From an uncultured SAR86 cluster bacterium (lineage in GTDB: Bacteria > Pseudomonadota > Gammaproteobacteria > Magnimaribacterales > Magnimaribacteraceae), in the NCBI GenBank assembly GCA_902542325.1, contig CACBUE010000001.1:124001-188000 (forward strand): a stretch of 64,000 nt of DNA, read 5' to 3'. Every line of letters begins with the position of its first letter. Position 1 is the first letter of the stretch. Made by a program: the position numbers and the translations under genes. The notes beneath the pieces are model-generated. The model had not been told where the DNA came from. It ran no database searches and saw only the letters and a list, made by a program, of their open reading frames with translations. Shown here piece by piece: positions 8,711 through 14,634 of this stretch.

Positions 8711-9469
8711 TTATCTTTCTTCTGCTCTTTGTGTGAGAATTTCTGCCCCATTTTTATTTACATAAATAGTATGCTCCCATTGTGCTGAATTCTTGCCATC
8801 CCTAGTTTCAACTGTCCATCCATCTTCTAATAGATTAGTATGTTTCGAGCCTAAATTTATCATAGGTTCAATTGTGAAACACATGCCCTCAATAATTTCT
8901 TGTCCTGTATTAGCTTCCCCATAATGAAGTATCTGAGGCTCATCATGATAGATTTTGCCAATTCCATGACCGCAGTATTCTTCAACCACAGTATAGTAAT
9001 TTTTTTCAGCATGAGTTTGTATTGCATGACCAATATCCCCAAGGCTTGCTCCGGGTCTTACAACTTCTATACCTTTATAGAGACATTCTTGTGTAATTTT
9101 AACAAGCCTTTCGTTGTGTGCTTGGACTTTTCCTACAAGATACATTTTTGAAGTATCCCCGTGCCATCCATCTTTGATTACTGTGACATCAATATTCATA
9201 ATGTCTCCACTTTTAAGAATTCGATTATCATCTGGTATGCCATGACATATAACTTGATTGATACTCGTACATAATGTTTTCTCAAAACCTCTATATCCTA
9301 TATTTGCAGGAATAGCCTTTTGAACATCTACAATATAGTCGTAACAAATTTTATCTAATTCTCCAGTTGAGATTCCTGGTTTAATAAAATCTCCAATCAT
9401 CTCCAATACTTCAGCAGCAAGACTGCCTGCCTTTCTCATTCCATTGAGTTCTTCTAAATTTTTTATCAC
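8711..9469 (-). CDS. map: Methionine aminopeptidase type I
   Basis: Removes the N-terminal methionine from nascent proteins; a cytosolic dimetal enzyme. The 252-residue length is typical for type Ia. Family segments in order: CTSINQVICHGIPDD, GDIMNIDVTVIKDGWHGDTSKMY (metal Asp residues and the substrate His), EEYCGHGIGKIYHDEPQILHY (metal His), GMCFTIEPMI (metal Glu) and the final Glu in SAQWEHTIYV. The start codon is GTG with only a weak A-rich upstream region. It heads a minus-strand operon with glnD (9-base gap). In most relatives map diverges from rpsB-tsf; here it diverges from pyrF-carAB. Confidence 0.95.
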   Translation of the reverse strand: MIKNLEELNGMRKAGSLAAEVLEMIGDFIKPGISTGELDKICYDYIVDVQKAIPANIGYRGFEKTLCTSINQVICHGIPDDNRILKSGDIMNIDVTVIKDGWHGDTSKMYLVGKVQAHNERLVKITQECLYKGIEVVRPGASLGDIGHAIQTHAEKNYYTVVEEYCGHGIGKIYHDEPQILHYGEANTGQEIIEGMCFTIEPMINLGSKHTNLLEDGWTVETRDGKNSAQWEHTIYVNKNGAEILTQRAEER

Positions 9470-9492: not shown

Positions 9493-9522
9493 TTGATAGA
9501 CAGGGAAACATACATTTATTAT
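9493..9522 (+). promoter_or_regulatory. Putative sigma-70 promoter for pyrF-carA-carB
   Basis: TTGATA (9493-9498) and TATTAT (9517-9522) are separated by 18 bases, a reasonable sigma-70 match. The expected transcription start is about 9528-9530, giving an RNA beginning near GGUUUUAAUG. The T-run directly at the start site resembles pyrimidine-gene promoters where UTP level controls slippage (E. coli carAB P1 and pyrBI are the known models); that parallel is inference. Confidence 0.5.
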
Positions 9523-9523
9523 A
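9518..9523 (-). promoter_or_regulatory. Putative map promoter -10 element
   Basis: Read on the minus strand this is a perfect TATAAT, about 50 bases upstream of the map GTG start. No good -35 box lies 16-18 bases upstream on that strand (the best nearby, TTGGCA, gives a spacer of only 12), so this is a one-element call. It overlaps the -10 of the opposing pyrF promoter almost base for base. Confidence 0.4.
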
Positions 9524-9534
9524 GTGTGGTTTTA

Positions 9535-9627
9535 ATGCCAATAGGCCTTAAAAATCAAAAATGCGAACTTCAGATACCTTTCTGGTTCGCTTTTTTTTCA
9601 TCAAATTTTATCAATTCTCCTGATTAA
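9535..9627 (+). promoter_or_regulatory. Possible pyrF leader peptide reading frame (30 codons)
   Basis: An open frame starts at ATG 9535, only about five bases after the predicted transcription start, runs straight through the terminator hairpin at 9563-9598, and stops with TAA three bases before the pyrF ATG. It contains a Phe-rich stretch (FWFAFF) encoded by the U-rich part of the hairpin tail. No Shine-Dalgarno sequence is visible, so it would be translated as a near-leaderless message. The layout resembles the pyrBI leader of enteric bacteria, where a ribosome translating the leader prevents termination when UTP is low. The coincidence of frame and hairpin could still be chance. Confidence 0.35.
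9563..9598 (+). terminator. Rho-independent terminator/attenuator upstream of pyrF
   Basis: GCGAAC (9563-9568) pairs with GTTCGC (9585-9590); an inner CAG/CTG extends the stem beyond a two-base bulge, and eight T residues follow directly. It lies between the predicted pyrF promoter and the pyrF start, with no complete gene ahead of it, so it most likely acts as an attenuator or ends a short untranslated RNA. Confidence 0.65.
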
Positions 9628-9630
9628 AGT

Positions 9631-10314
9631 ATGGAAAATAGAATCATTATTCCGTTAGATGTTGATTACATTAATGCTTTAAACATTGCCAAAACTCTTG
9701 ATCCAAAAATCTGCAGGTTAAAGGTAGGTAACCAATTATTCACTTCATCGGGCCCTCAAGTAATTAATGACCTGAAAGGACTGGGATTTGAAATATTTTT
9801 AGACCTAAAATTTCACGATATTCCAAATACTGTCTACGGAGCAGTAAGATCCGCTGCAGATCTTGGAGTATGGATGGTAAATGTTCATGCCTCTGGAGGC
9901 ATTAAAATGCTGGAAGCCTCAAGAAGGGCATTAGAAGGCTATGATCAACCCCCTTTATTAATTGGTGTCACTGTCTTAACAAGTCTATCAGAAGATGCTC
10001 TCAAAGAAGTTGGCTTGCAGGGAGTTTCAGAGCAAGTTTTAAGACTAGCCACCTTAGCTAGAGAATGTGAGTTAGATGGAGTTGTGTGTGCATCTTCAGA
10101 TGCAAAAGATATCAAAGACAAATTTGGTGAAGATTTTTTAACAGTAACTCCTGGAATAAGGCCATTCCAATCTGATTTAGATGATCAAAGCAGAGTATCA
10201 ACACCTGAAGAAGCAATTAAGAATGGTTCTGATTTTCTTGTAATAGGAAGACCCATTACTGGTTCCCAAAATCCCAGAGCCACTCTTGAAGAAATCAATT
10301 TAAAAATTGCATGA
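9631..10314 (+). CDS. pyrF: Orotidine 5'-phosphate decarboxylase
   Basis: Catalyses the last step of UMP synthesis, decarboxylating OMP. At 227 residues it is the standard bacterial size. The catalytic cluster is visible as [10 protein letters not shown], with D58, K60 and D63; a TIM-barrel phosphate-gripper segment VTPGIRP lies near residues 171-177 and the ending IGRPIT is typical. ATG start; its last bases overlap the carA start (ATGA), so the two are translationally coupled. Joining pyrF to carAB unites the last and first steps of pyrimidine synthesis in one transcript. Confidence 0.96.
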
Positions 10315-11426
10315 GTAAAGAAAAAGCAATACTTGCATTAGAAGACGGAACAATCTTCGAGGGAATAAGTATTGGCGCTTCAGGACAGGTTAATGGTGAA
10401 ATTGTTTTCAATACTTCTATGACAGGTTATCAAGAAATTCTTACAGATCCTTCATATGCCAAGCAAATAGTAACCTTAACTTACCCGCATATTGGAAATA
10501 CAGGAACAAATAGTGAGGATACTGAATCAGATAAAATTTGGTGTTCTGGATTGGTAATAAGGTCGCTTTCTCAGGCGGAAAGTAGTTGGCGCAATACTGA
10601 AACTTTATCTAATTACCTCATTAGAAATAATATTCAAGGAATATCTGATATAGATACAAGAAAATTGACAAGAATAATAAGAGAAAAAGGTGCTCAGTCA
10701 GCATCAATATTTACTGGTAACTCAGTTGACTCAAACAACGCAGTAGATTTAGCGAAAGATTTTGAAGGTTTAGCTGGTTTAGATCTCGCAAAAGAAGTTA
10801 CAACAGAATCTAGTTATGATTGGAAAGAAGGAACATGGAGAGGATGTAATGGTGAATCTGATTTTAGAGTTGCAGTTTTAGATTTCGGAATTAAAAAAAA
10901 TATATTAAGAATATTAGTTGATCAAGGGTATGAATTAAAAATTTTCCCCGCTAAAACTTCTTGCCAAGAAATTTTAGATTTCAAACCAAATGGGGTGTTT
11001 TTATCTAACGGACCTGGCGATCCCGAACCATGTATCTATGCCATTGATACAATTAAAGAATTAATCCAAATCAGTATGCCCATATTCGGCATTTGTCTAG
11101 GTCATCAATTACTCGCAATAGCATTGGGTGGCAAGACATCAAAAATGAAATTTGGTCATCATGGTGCAAATCATCCTGTCCAAGATCTCAAAACTAGCAA
11201 AGTTTCAGTAAGCTCTCAGAATCATGGCTTCACAGTCGAAGAAAATTCCTTACCTACAAATGTTGAGATAACTCATAAATCGTTATTTGATGGAACTATT
11301 CAAGGAATCCAGCATTCATCTAAACCTTTTTTCAGTTTTCAAGGCCATCCGGAAGCCAGCCCTGGACCTCATGATCTGGCATATCTATTCTCAACATTTG
11401 ATAAAAATATGACTAAAAATGCCTAG
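10311..11426 (+). CDS. carA: Carbamoyl-phosphate synthase small subunit
   Basis: The glutaminase subunit: hydrolyses glutamine and channels ammonia to CarB for carbamoyl phosphate, shared by arginine and pyrimidine synthesis. The 371-residue chain has the N-terminal CPSase-small domain (about 1-150, with [18 protein letters not shown]) and a class I glutamine amidotransferase domain with nucleophile C262 in [11 protein letters not shown] and the His/Glu pair in [13 protein letters not shown]. It overlaps pyrF by 4 bases and carB by 8 bases, consistent with a coupled operon and equimolar subunits. Confidence 0.97.
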
Positions 11427-14400
11427 AAGAAAGGACATAAATTCAATTTTAATAATAGGAGCCGGTCCTATCGTAATTGGTCAGGCATGTGAATTTGATT
11501 ATTCTGGAGCACAAGCTTGTAAGGCATTAAAAGAAGATGGTTATAGAGTTATTTTAATCAACTCAAATCCTGCAACAATTATGACAGACCCAAGCATGTC
11601 AGATGCCACATACATTGAACCAATTCACTGGGAGACTATTGAGAAAATAATTGAAAAAGAAAAACCAGATGCATTATTACCAACAATGGGAGGTCAAACT
11701 GCGTTAAATGCTGCTCTTGATTTAGATAGTAGGGGTATTTTAAAAAAACATAATGTTGAGATGATAGGAGCAACTAAAGAGGCAATTGATAAGGCTGAGG
11801 ATAGAGAATTATTTGCAGCTTGTATGGAAAAGATAGGATTAAAGGTTCCTGAATCTGGTTTGGCGCACAATAATGAAGAGGCACACATTCTTTTGGAAAG
11901 AATTGGTTTCCCCTGTGTGTTAAGACCAAACTTCACTATGGGTGGTTCTGGTGGAGGAATTGCTTACAACATCGAGGAATTTGACGAAATTTGTAAAAGA
12001 GGGTTAGAACTTTCACCTACTTCTGAAATATTTATTGATAAATTTCTTGGTGGTTGGAAAGAATATGAAATGGAAGTTGTCAGAGATAAGAATGATAATT
12101 GCATAATCGTTTGTAGCATCGAAAATCTTGATCCAATGGGAGTTCATACAGGAGACTCAATAACTGTTGCTCCCTCTCAAACTCTTACAGATAAGGAATA
12201 TCAAATTATGAGAAATGCTTCCATTGATATTCTCAGAGAAATAGGAGTCGAAACAGGAGGTTCAAATGTCCAATTCACCATTAATCCAGAAGATGGCGAG
12301 ATGTTAATTATTGAGATGAATCCAAGAGTTTCCAGATCTTCAGCTCTAGCCTCAAAAGCAACTGGCTTCCCGATAGCTAAAGTTGCTGCAAAACTAGCTG
12401 TTGGCTATACATTAGACGAATTGAGTAATGATATTACTGGTGATGTTATACCGGCGTCTTTTGAACCTTCTATAGACTATGTAGTAACCAAGATTCCTAG
12501 ATTTAACTTTGAAAAGTTTATCCAAACAGATCCAGTCTTATCAACACAGATGAAATCTGTAGGAGAAGTGATGGCTATTGGTAGAACATTTCAAGAGTCG
12601 CTACAAAAAGCAATTAGAGGTTTAGAAACCGGAAGAAGCGGTCTTGATCCGATTTTTAGAGAGGATGATGAATTTGAGACGCTTAAACAAAAAATAAGTA
12701 TACCTAGCCCGGATAGACTTTGGTTTGTAGCAGATGGATTTAGAAATGGTTTAACACCTGAGGAAGTATTTGAGTATTCAAAGATAGATCCTTGGTTTTT
12801 GATTCAAATTAAAGACCTCATAGACATAGAAGTAAGTCTTGAGGATGTTTCCTTAAAAGATTTAGATTATGAGCAATTATATGGTTTAAAGAGAAAAGGC
12901 TTTTCTGATTCAAGAATCGGTGAATTGATTGGAAGTTCAGAAGATCAAGTTAGACAACTTAGAAAATCATTAAATCTCAATCCTGTATTCAAAAGAGTTG
13001 ATACATGTGCTGCCGAGTTTGAATCCTCTACTGCCTATATGTACTCAACATATGAAGAAGAATGTGAAGCTAACGTAACTCAAAATAAAAAAATTATGGT
13101 CTTGGGAGGAGGTCCCAATAGGATAGGGCAAGGTATAGAATTTGACTACTGTTGCGTCCATGCTGCTCTTGGCTTGAGAGAAGAAGGGTACGAAACAATA
13201 ATGGTCAATTGTAACCCTGAAACAGTTTCAACTGATTTTGATACGTCAGATAGATTATATTTTGAGCCAATCACTGTCGAAGATGTTCTTGCCATTACTG
13301 ATATCGAAAATCCCAAGGGTGTTATTGTTCAATATGGCGGACAAACGCCTTTGAAGATAGCAGAAGAGCTTGAAAAGAATGGTGTTCCAATTTTGGGCAC
13401 ATCCCCTGATTCCATTGATCTGGCAGAAGATAGAGGGAGATTCCAAGAATTTGTAAATAAACATAACTTGAAACAACCCCCAAATGGAATTGCTTCTAGT
13501 GTTGAGGAAGCGATGGAAGTTTCCGAACAAGTTGGTTTCCCTCTTGTAGTAAGACCTTCTTATGTGCTTGGCGGGAGAGCTATGGAGGTGGTCCATAAAA
13601 AAACAGATCTGGAAAATTATCTCGTTGAAGCAGTTCAGGCAAGTGCAAAAAGTCCTGTACTTCTAGATGGATTTCTCAATCAAGCAGTAGAAATGGACAT
13701 TGAGGCAGTATGCGATGGTGAAACAGTTATTATTGGTGGGATTCTCCAACATATTGAACAGGCAGGGATACATTCTGGTGATTCTGCATGTTCTTTACCA
13801 CCTTACAGTTTATCTGAAGAATTGGTTGCTGAAATCACTCACATGGTTAAAAAAATAGCCATCGAGATTGGAGCCATAGGATTGATAAATGTTCAGTTAG
13901 CTTACTATAATGAAGAATTGTATTTACTTGAAGTAAATCCAAGAGCGTCTAGGACAATTCCCTTTGTCTCAAAATGTATAGGAAGATCATTAGCTAAAGC
14001 TGGAGCATTATGCATGGCAGGTATTAGCCTCAAGGATCAAAATTTCAATAAGGAAATAGTTCCAGAATATTTTTCTGTTAAAGAGGCAGTTTTTCCTTTC
14101 AATAAATTTTTAGGCGTTGACCCAATTTTAGGTCCTGAAATGAAATCAACTGGAGAAGTAATGGGAGTGGGTTCTAGTTTTTCCGAAGCCTATGCTAAGG
14201 CGCAGTTAGGTGCAGGAGAGATTATTCCTAAAGAAGGATCTGTCTTTTTAAGCGTGAGGGATTCAGATAGACCTTTCGTTGCAGAAATTGCAAAGGAGTT
14301 TCTTGATTTAGGATTTAAAATTATTGCTACAAAAGGTACTGCGAGACATATTGAAGAAGCAGGGATAAATGTTGAGATTATAAAAAAAGTAGCTGAAGGA

Positions 14401-14634
14401 AGACCTCACGTTGTAGATGCCATGAAAAACGGACAAGTTAACCTTATCGTCAATACTACAGAAGGAAAACAATCTATACTCGATTCAGCTTCAATAAGAA
14501 GAACCGCATTAGAAGAAAAAATTTATTGCACCACTACATTAGAAGGCGGAAGGGCAGTTTGCTCCGTAATACGTAATAAAGATCTTTGGTCGGTTGAGAG
14601 ACTTCAAGATCTTCATGATAATATTTCCCAATGA
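11419..14634 (+). CDS. carB: Carbamoyl-phosphate synthase large subunit
   Basis: Synthesises carbamoyl phosphate from bicarbonate, ammonia and two ATP in a heteromer with CarA. The 1071-residue protein is full length (E. coli 1073). Two homologous ATP-grasp halves are evident: [20 protein letters not shown] (N-half, about 13-32) and [20 protein letters not shown] (C-half, about 560-579), with repeated [17 protein letters not shown] / [14 protein letters not shown]. The last about 130 residues form the MGS-like allosteric domain that binds UMP and ornithine in relatives. It overlaps greA by 4 bases. In most relatives dapB precedes carAB; it is not here. Confidence 0.98.

Follow-up and report, generated by a model that had tools for sequence, protein, structure and literature searches.

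Which kind of control does the short leader in front of pyrF, carA and carB exert in this SAR86 genome, and does it belong to this particular gene order? SAR86 is an abundant and mostly uncultured marine group with small genomes. For the window, by which we mean the whole analysed stretch of 64,000 nt, the initial annotation had described a promoter, a T-run at the start site, a 30-codon frame from 9535, a GC hairpin and eight T residues. All of these elements and their coordinates are correct to the base. A second hairpin at 9530-9553, which includes the leader AUG, was absent from that description and is added here. The locus is composed as follows.

8711..9469, minus strand: map (methionyl aminopeptidase, TIGR00500), divergent neighbour of the leader
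9497..9525, plus strand: promoter, -35 element TAGACA (9497-9502), 17-nt spacer, -10 element TATAGT (9520-9525)
9526..9534, plus strand: 9-nt stretch GTGGTTTTA from the -10 element to the ATG
9530..9553, plus strand: hairpin 1, in which a downstream arm pairs with the T-run of the start site and with part of the AUG of the leader (TTTTAA-GCC/GGC-TTAAAA)
9535..9627, plus strand: leader ORF of 30 codons, ATG 9535-9537, TAA 9625-9627
9563..9598, plus strand: intrinsic terminator (attenuator), stem 9563-9590, T-tract 9591-9598 (eight T)
9631..10314, plus strand: pyrF (NF001273), between the carAB leader and carA
10311..11426, plus strand: carA (TIGR01368)
11419..14634, plus strand: carB (NF003671)

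The genes pyrF, carA, carB and map, and also greA, are matched by NCBIfam models. Read directly, the leader TAA and the pyrF ATG at 9631 are separated by 3 nt. The fold of 9530-9600 reaches -20.4 kcal/mol, compared with -7.8 ± 2.4 kcal/mol for shuffled sequences, and the terminator alone (9556-9591) is predicted at -12.1 kcal/mol (z -4.6). Its stem consists of GCGAAC/GTTCGC plus CAGA/TCTG with a 2-nt bulge; this bulge is the likely reason why a terminator scan of the window overlooked the hairpin at 9563-9598. The corresponding promoter scan returned 5 promoter-like sites in the window, with 7.6 ± 3.0 expected, and gives no support on its own. Two promoter matches overlap in front of the leader, of which conservation favours TAGACA-17-TATAGT. 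The alternative -10 element TATTAT is not kept in the leaders of families f2 and f3 and was rejected. The ATG at 9561 was likewise discarded as the start of a second frame, since several relatives do not have it. The observation of the leader as such is confirmed to lie far beyond chance.

A location before pyrimidine genes would also suit control by PyrR or by a metabolite-binding RNA. We regard this as scarcely credible: just two simple hairpins are predicted in the leader, it has no Rfam match at gathering score, and PyrR is over the cut-off in 0/10 genomes, with weak matches below it in 2/10.

For comparison 144 leaders were read, each from one of the 182 genomes of families f1-f3 of the SAR86 order. 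The 38 unread genomes comprise some in which the carA start was either not listed or incomplete, and others that were listed but not fetched. Sixteen leaders of the window's genus (g1) were found via a PyrF search, PyrF being present in 17/19 genomes of this genus and 16 of them reaching the start. A covariance model of the conserved block, which has matches in 44/203 genomes of the order, recovered the same 16 g1 genomes; minor minus-strand matches of this model (R1) fall at the same place. Thirteen other f1 leaders and 15 f2 leaders came from the leader model itself and are hence biased toward conserved leaders. In contrast, 16 f2 leaders and 84/107 f3 leaders were chosen by CarA positions, independent of the leader.

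In this set the arrangement of the promoter and the leader frame is essentially invariant. The order TRGACN - 17 nt - TANAGT - 9 nt - ATG is present in 143/144 leaders across families f1-f3, and the sole exception (L189) is cut by a contig end. The 9-nt stretch does not vary in length, and its positions 8 and 9 are T and A, respectively, in 143/143 leaders. Within g1 the region from the -10 element to the T-tract is almost invariant while the stretch from the T-tract to pyrF diverges, and all 16 leaders keep both the block and the open frame. Conservation of hairpin and frame among relatives had been set beforehand as the test of the proposed device; both are kept.

The comparison also changes the assignment of the leader to its target. 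Outside g1 and two g6 genomes the leader match directly precedes carA, with map on the other side; map adjoins the leader in 28/28 loci fetched. The gene pyrF lies between leader and carA in 16/16 g1 leaders and in 2/4 of the g6 leaders read. As the leader of other genera is followed immediately by carA, pyrF is ruled out as the native target. What had been taken for a specific pyrF-carAB device is thus a carAB leader, in which pyrF intervenes only in g1 and part of g6. Most likely pyrF joined a pre-existing carAB leader, as far as we infer the order of events.

The leader frame is kept together with the position of its stop. In all 16 g1 leaders it is open through the terminator and stops at -3 to +16 of the pyrF start. 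Among the 143 leaders with complete geometry, 135 have the leader stop within -15 to +17 of the downstream start (carA or pyrF), and an exact 4-nt overlap of the leader stop with the carA start is found in 67/84 f3 leaders. Of the 143, 126 have frame 0 open as far as the downstream start, 1 has frame +1 and 8 have frame +2 open, 6 of these 8 belonging to f2g9. Counted on 48 representatives, which are <70% identical and phylogenetically non-independent, the respective numbers are 43, 0 and 1, as compared with 15.5 ± 3.0 open frames (maximum 26) in 1000 rounds of shuffling. Under the stricter shuffle of the tail only, 17/17 f1 representatives compare with 11.9 ± 1.6 and 31/31 f3 representatives with 10.1 ± 2.4, and 0/1000 rounds reach the observed value in either family. 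For f2 without g9 the frame is open in 6/6 representatives, yet 468/1000 rounds equal this, and chance is not rejected here. The retained frame and stop position are hence directly supported for f1 and f3.

In f2g9 all 8 leaders stop at -22 or -43, that is inside or before the terminator, and coupling to carA therefore fails in this genus. The leader frame of f2g9 (e.g. L066, L072) has just 8 or 15 codons, and the carA ATG is located ~6 nt past the T-tract.

No consistent signal was obtained from tests for selection on the leader peptide, which use pairwise counts that are not independent. In three f3 genera 335/1460, 122/385 and 58/473 single-change codons are synonymous, with 295, 95 and 112 expected. 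Third codon positions are the most variable in f1g1 and f3g20, but not in f3g13 or f3g15. Moreover, a run of Arg codons as for arginine-codon attenuation is not present; Arg accounts for 1.4, 3.3 and 2.4% of the leader residues in f1, f2 and f3, respectively. A frame that is kept without consistent constraint on its peptide suggests that what matters is translating it and not the peptide made.

The intrinsic terminator, by contrast, is a feature of two families. Defined as a fold of less than -7 kcal/mol followed by at least 7 T, it is present in 59/59 f1 and f2 leaders and in 0/84 f3 leaders, though f3 keeps the frame. The stems of f1 and f2 vary in sequence between genera with the pairing retained. 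RNAalifold found no covariation within the genus, where the block barely varies; the comparison between families is therefore needed. The layout likened to pyrBI by the initial annotation, a leader frame running through an intrinsic terminator with its stop beside the next gene, is thus preserved by the relatives. A short and highly conserved leader with a terminator in f1 and f2 might as well be released as a small RNA that acts in trans, a role that has been proposed for Pseudomonas syringae P32 (PMC4997734). We hold this to be highly unlikely, as 84/84 f3 leaders have no terminator and the frame and its stop position are kept.

The fixed distance from promoter to ATG has a further consequence for the 5’ end of the RNA. 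Transcription prefers to start at a purine following a pyrimidine. According to the E. coli work described in PMC5730371, the modal start lies 7 bp after the -10 element, within a range of about 6-9, and seldom departs from the mode by more than 2 bp in the downstream or 1 bp in the upstream direction. These rules combined with the invariant spacing predict a 5’ end that lies 1-4 nt upstream of the leader AUG. For the window the RNA is predicted to begin at 9531-9534, with A9534 favoured. The leader frame would thus be nearly leaderless itself.

Close to this predicted 5’ end the leader AUG is predicted to be paired. All three of its bases are paired in hairpin 1 in 120/143 folds (6/29 f1, 30/30 f2, 84/84 f3), and in the other 23 f1 leaders two of three are. 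The span of the arms amounts to 24 nt in f1, about 23 nt in f2 and 35 nt in f3. The predicted stability of hairpin 1 drops stepwise as the transcript start shifts from position 5 to position 10. With a start at position 6 the mean energies are -5.7 (f1), -8.2 (f2) and -4.9 kcal/mol (f3); with a start at position 9 they are -3.3, -3.3 and -1.7 kcal/mol. Hairpins of -5 to -8 kcal/mol may block a ribosome only modestly.

Position 7 after the -10 element is informative with respect to the nature of this conservation. Its pair in hairpin 1 is U-A in 28/29 f1 and 83/84 f3 leaders; in f2 it is C-G in 25/30 and U-G in 5/30. This bears on the possibility, considered by the initial annotation, that RNA polymerase slips on the start-site T-run depending on UTP, a reiterative transcription known from E. 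coli carAB P1. A TTTT run at positions 5-8 is indeed present in f1 including the window, in f3 and in f2g8, and slippage may still act in f1 and f3. The run is not shared by all leaders, however: C at position 7 breaks it in 25/30 f2 leaders, and a T-to-C change in the E. coli run abolishes the effect according to PMC6245113. As this C is matched by a hairpin G in 25/25 cases, it is the pairing that is kept and not the run. As an account of the leader family we judge slippage decidedly improbable.

Compensating changes preserve dyad symmetry as well as a hairpin, and the palindrome at 9530-9553 could accordingly be a DNA operator for a repressor. Searching 10 SAR86 genomes for a loose form of the dyad (TTYTAATG...CNTTARAA) gives 48 matches, compared with 20 for a backwards control, palindromes being counted on both strands. 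Four matches fall into the genome of the window and one of these is the leader. Yet the arm spans given above differ between the families, albeit by roughly one turn of the helix. In addition, 3/3 genomes contain the full leader composite exactly once, and the AUG inside the dyad opens a preserved frame. We thus consider an operator improbable. Some dyad matches are near-perfect palindromes distant from carA (L229-L254 and others). The 48 matches of the loose pattern against 20 control matches over 10 genomes do not establish a dyad regulon.

How could the leader then act? We favour a scheme in which translation of the leader decides carAB expression, by means of the attenuator in f1 and f2 and by coupling, with the pyrimidine pool as the presumed signal; on the present evidence this is probable. 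The RNA would begin 1-4 nt before the leader AUG, which hairpin 1 would pair wholly or partly. A ribosome that is loaded would travel along the leader and block formation of the terminator in f1 and f2. In most leaders, f2g9 excepted, it would end on or beside the start of carA (or pyrF) such that a hand-over is possible. If no ribosome is loaded, transcription would halt at the attenuator in f1 and f2 and the downstream start would be less used. Downstream Shine-Dalgarno cores are found in 0/59 f1 and f2 leaders and in 63/84 f3 leaders. Such cores are rare in the window anyway (before the first ATG in only 10/42 mechanically listed ORFs of 200 aa or more), so that their absence before carA or pyrF is weak support.

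The signal may be read out in different ways. Classical attenuation of the pyrBI type would assume that the leader AUG is freely used and that RNA polymerase becomes slow when UTP is scarce; the ribosome would then draw level with it and prevent the terminator, and hairpin 1 would serve as a pause hairpin. The frame running through the terminator, as in pyrL (PMC5021804, PMC4824070), and the terminator found throughout f1 and f2 argue for it. It cannot on its own explain the 84/84 f3 leaders that have geometry, frame and hairpin but no terminator, it offers no reason for pairing the AUG, and in g1 the segment separating the two stems is rich in A. We consider it rather unlikely.

Within the scheme of leader translation we favour the 5’ end of the RNA as the place where the signal enters. 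A pyrimidine start would yield the stronger hairpin over the AUG, and a start with A a nearly leaderless AUG with a weak hairpin. Of the readings considered, start-site choice under a 5’ hairpin seems to fit the fixed spacing and the C-G pair best. In its full form, which we put forward tentatively, high pyrimidine levels would lead to a start with U or C at positions 6-8 and to a 5’-terminal hairpin that buries the AUG; low levels would lead to a start with A at position 9 and to use of the AUG near the 5’ end. A single decision on the first nucleotide would set attenuation (f1 and f2) as well as coupling, with no protein regulator involved.

Several known systems resemble the SAR86 leader in part. 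For E. coli pyrBI a closely following ribosome is reported to prevent the terminator from forming (PMC5021804, PMC4824070). As in pyrBI, the leader frame of the window and of f1 and f2 overlaps an intrinsic terminator, apart from f2g9 where the frame ends inside or before the stem. Unlike in pyrBI, only 1-4 nt are predicted to precede the SAR86 leader frame in the RNA, its AUG is predicted to be paired, its stop is mostly at or in the next start, and the gene controlled would be carA or pyrF-carA. Family f3, being devoid of a terminator, would be pyrBI-like at most in part. In pyrC and pyrD of E. coli and Salmonella a hairpin at the 5’ end conceals a translation start to a degree set by the first nucleotide (principle described in PMC7818426), and folding predicts a comparable dependence for the SAR86 leader. 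Unlike there, the SAR86 start that would be hidden belongs to the leader frame and not to the enzyme gene. E. coli carAB P1 likewise drives carAB and has a short T-run around the start of transcription (GUUUGC; PMC6245113), but slippage requires an unbroken run, which most f2 leaders lack. The Polynucleobacter carA motif is also a conserved RNA element 5’ of carA (PMC8632094). Going by its description, it differs in being an imperfect, extended hairpin of betaproteobacteria that immediately precedes the ribosome site of carA, and the account of the motif in PMC8632094 mentions no leader frame.

The closest published system is seemingly carAB of Pseudomonas aeruginosa and P. stutzeri. According to Kwon et al. 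1994, as cited in PMC4997734, it has a single promoter, a stem-loop needed for the pyrimidine response and a leader peptide. The title of Kwon et al. 1994 states the absence of an untranslated region, while PMC4997734 itself refers to an upstream untranslated region. The P. aeruginosa leader, known to us from this second-hand description, may be of the same kind, which limits the novelty of the SAR86 leader. No paper on a SAR86 attenuator was found in the open PMC literature, by which absence from print is not established.

Beyond f1-f3 the leader appears to be missing. In family f4 no such leader is found in 20 carA upstream stretches, one of which is only 32 nt long. In f4 (L159-L178) the carA ATG lies ~13 nt after a TATAGT-like box, and carA itself is maybe nearly leaderless. 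Among 369 genomes sampled across the class, the three f1-f3 genomes carry the composite pattern once each; the pattern is absent from the f4 genome and from 365/365 genomes outside the order. Moreover, a TRGAC-type promoter pattern is absent upstream of pyrB in 9/9 genomes.

Among 79 named carA loci of bacteria other than SAR86 none has a frame starting 4-13 nt after the promoter and ending at carA. A TRGAC-type promoter is found within 300 nt in 44 of these loci (a count with no chance control). The TRGAC-type -35 element with 16-18 nt to TANNNT in those 44/79 (L080-L158) is maybe a shared feature of carA promoters. In the 200 nt upstream of carA, 29 of the 79 proteobacterial loci exhibit a terminator-like hairpin, compared with 4 on the opposite strand and 0.6 in mononucleotide shuffles. 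Several of those 29 hairpins are of the form GCGAG...CTCGC plus a T-run. From these sequences attenuators in front of carA look widespread. The near-leaderless coupled frame, on the other hand, is peculiar to SAR86 in the genomes and loci sampled.

With regard to the biology of SAR86, a leader in which promoter and AUG are a fixed distance apart seems to govern the first pyrimidine step in three of the four families read. Two families have the terminator and the third lacks it, with frame and hairpin kept, so that a comparison of the families can separate the essential part (leader translation) from the optional one (the attenuator). If the start-site choice outlined above holds true, control of the pyrC type and of the pyrBI type would be joined in one leader of ~100 nt. 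The SAR86 leader makes it possible to test whether a near-leaderless upstream frame acts as regulator.
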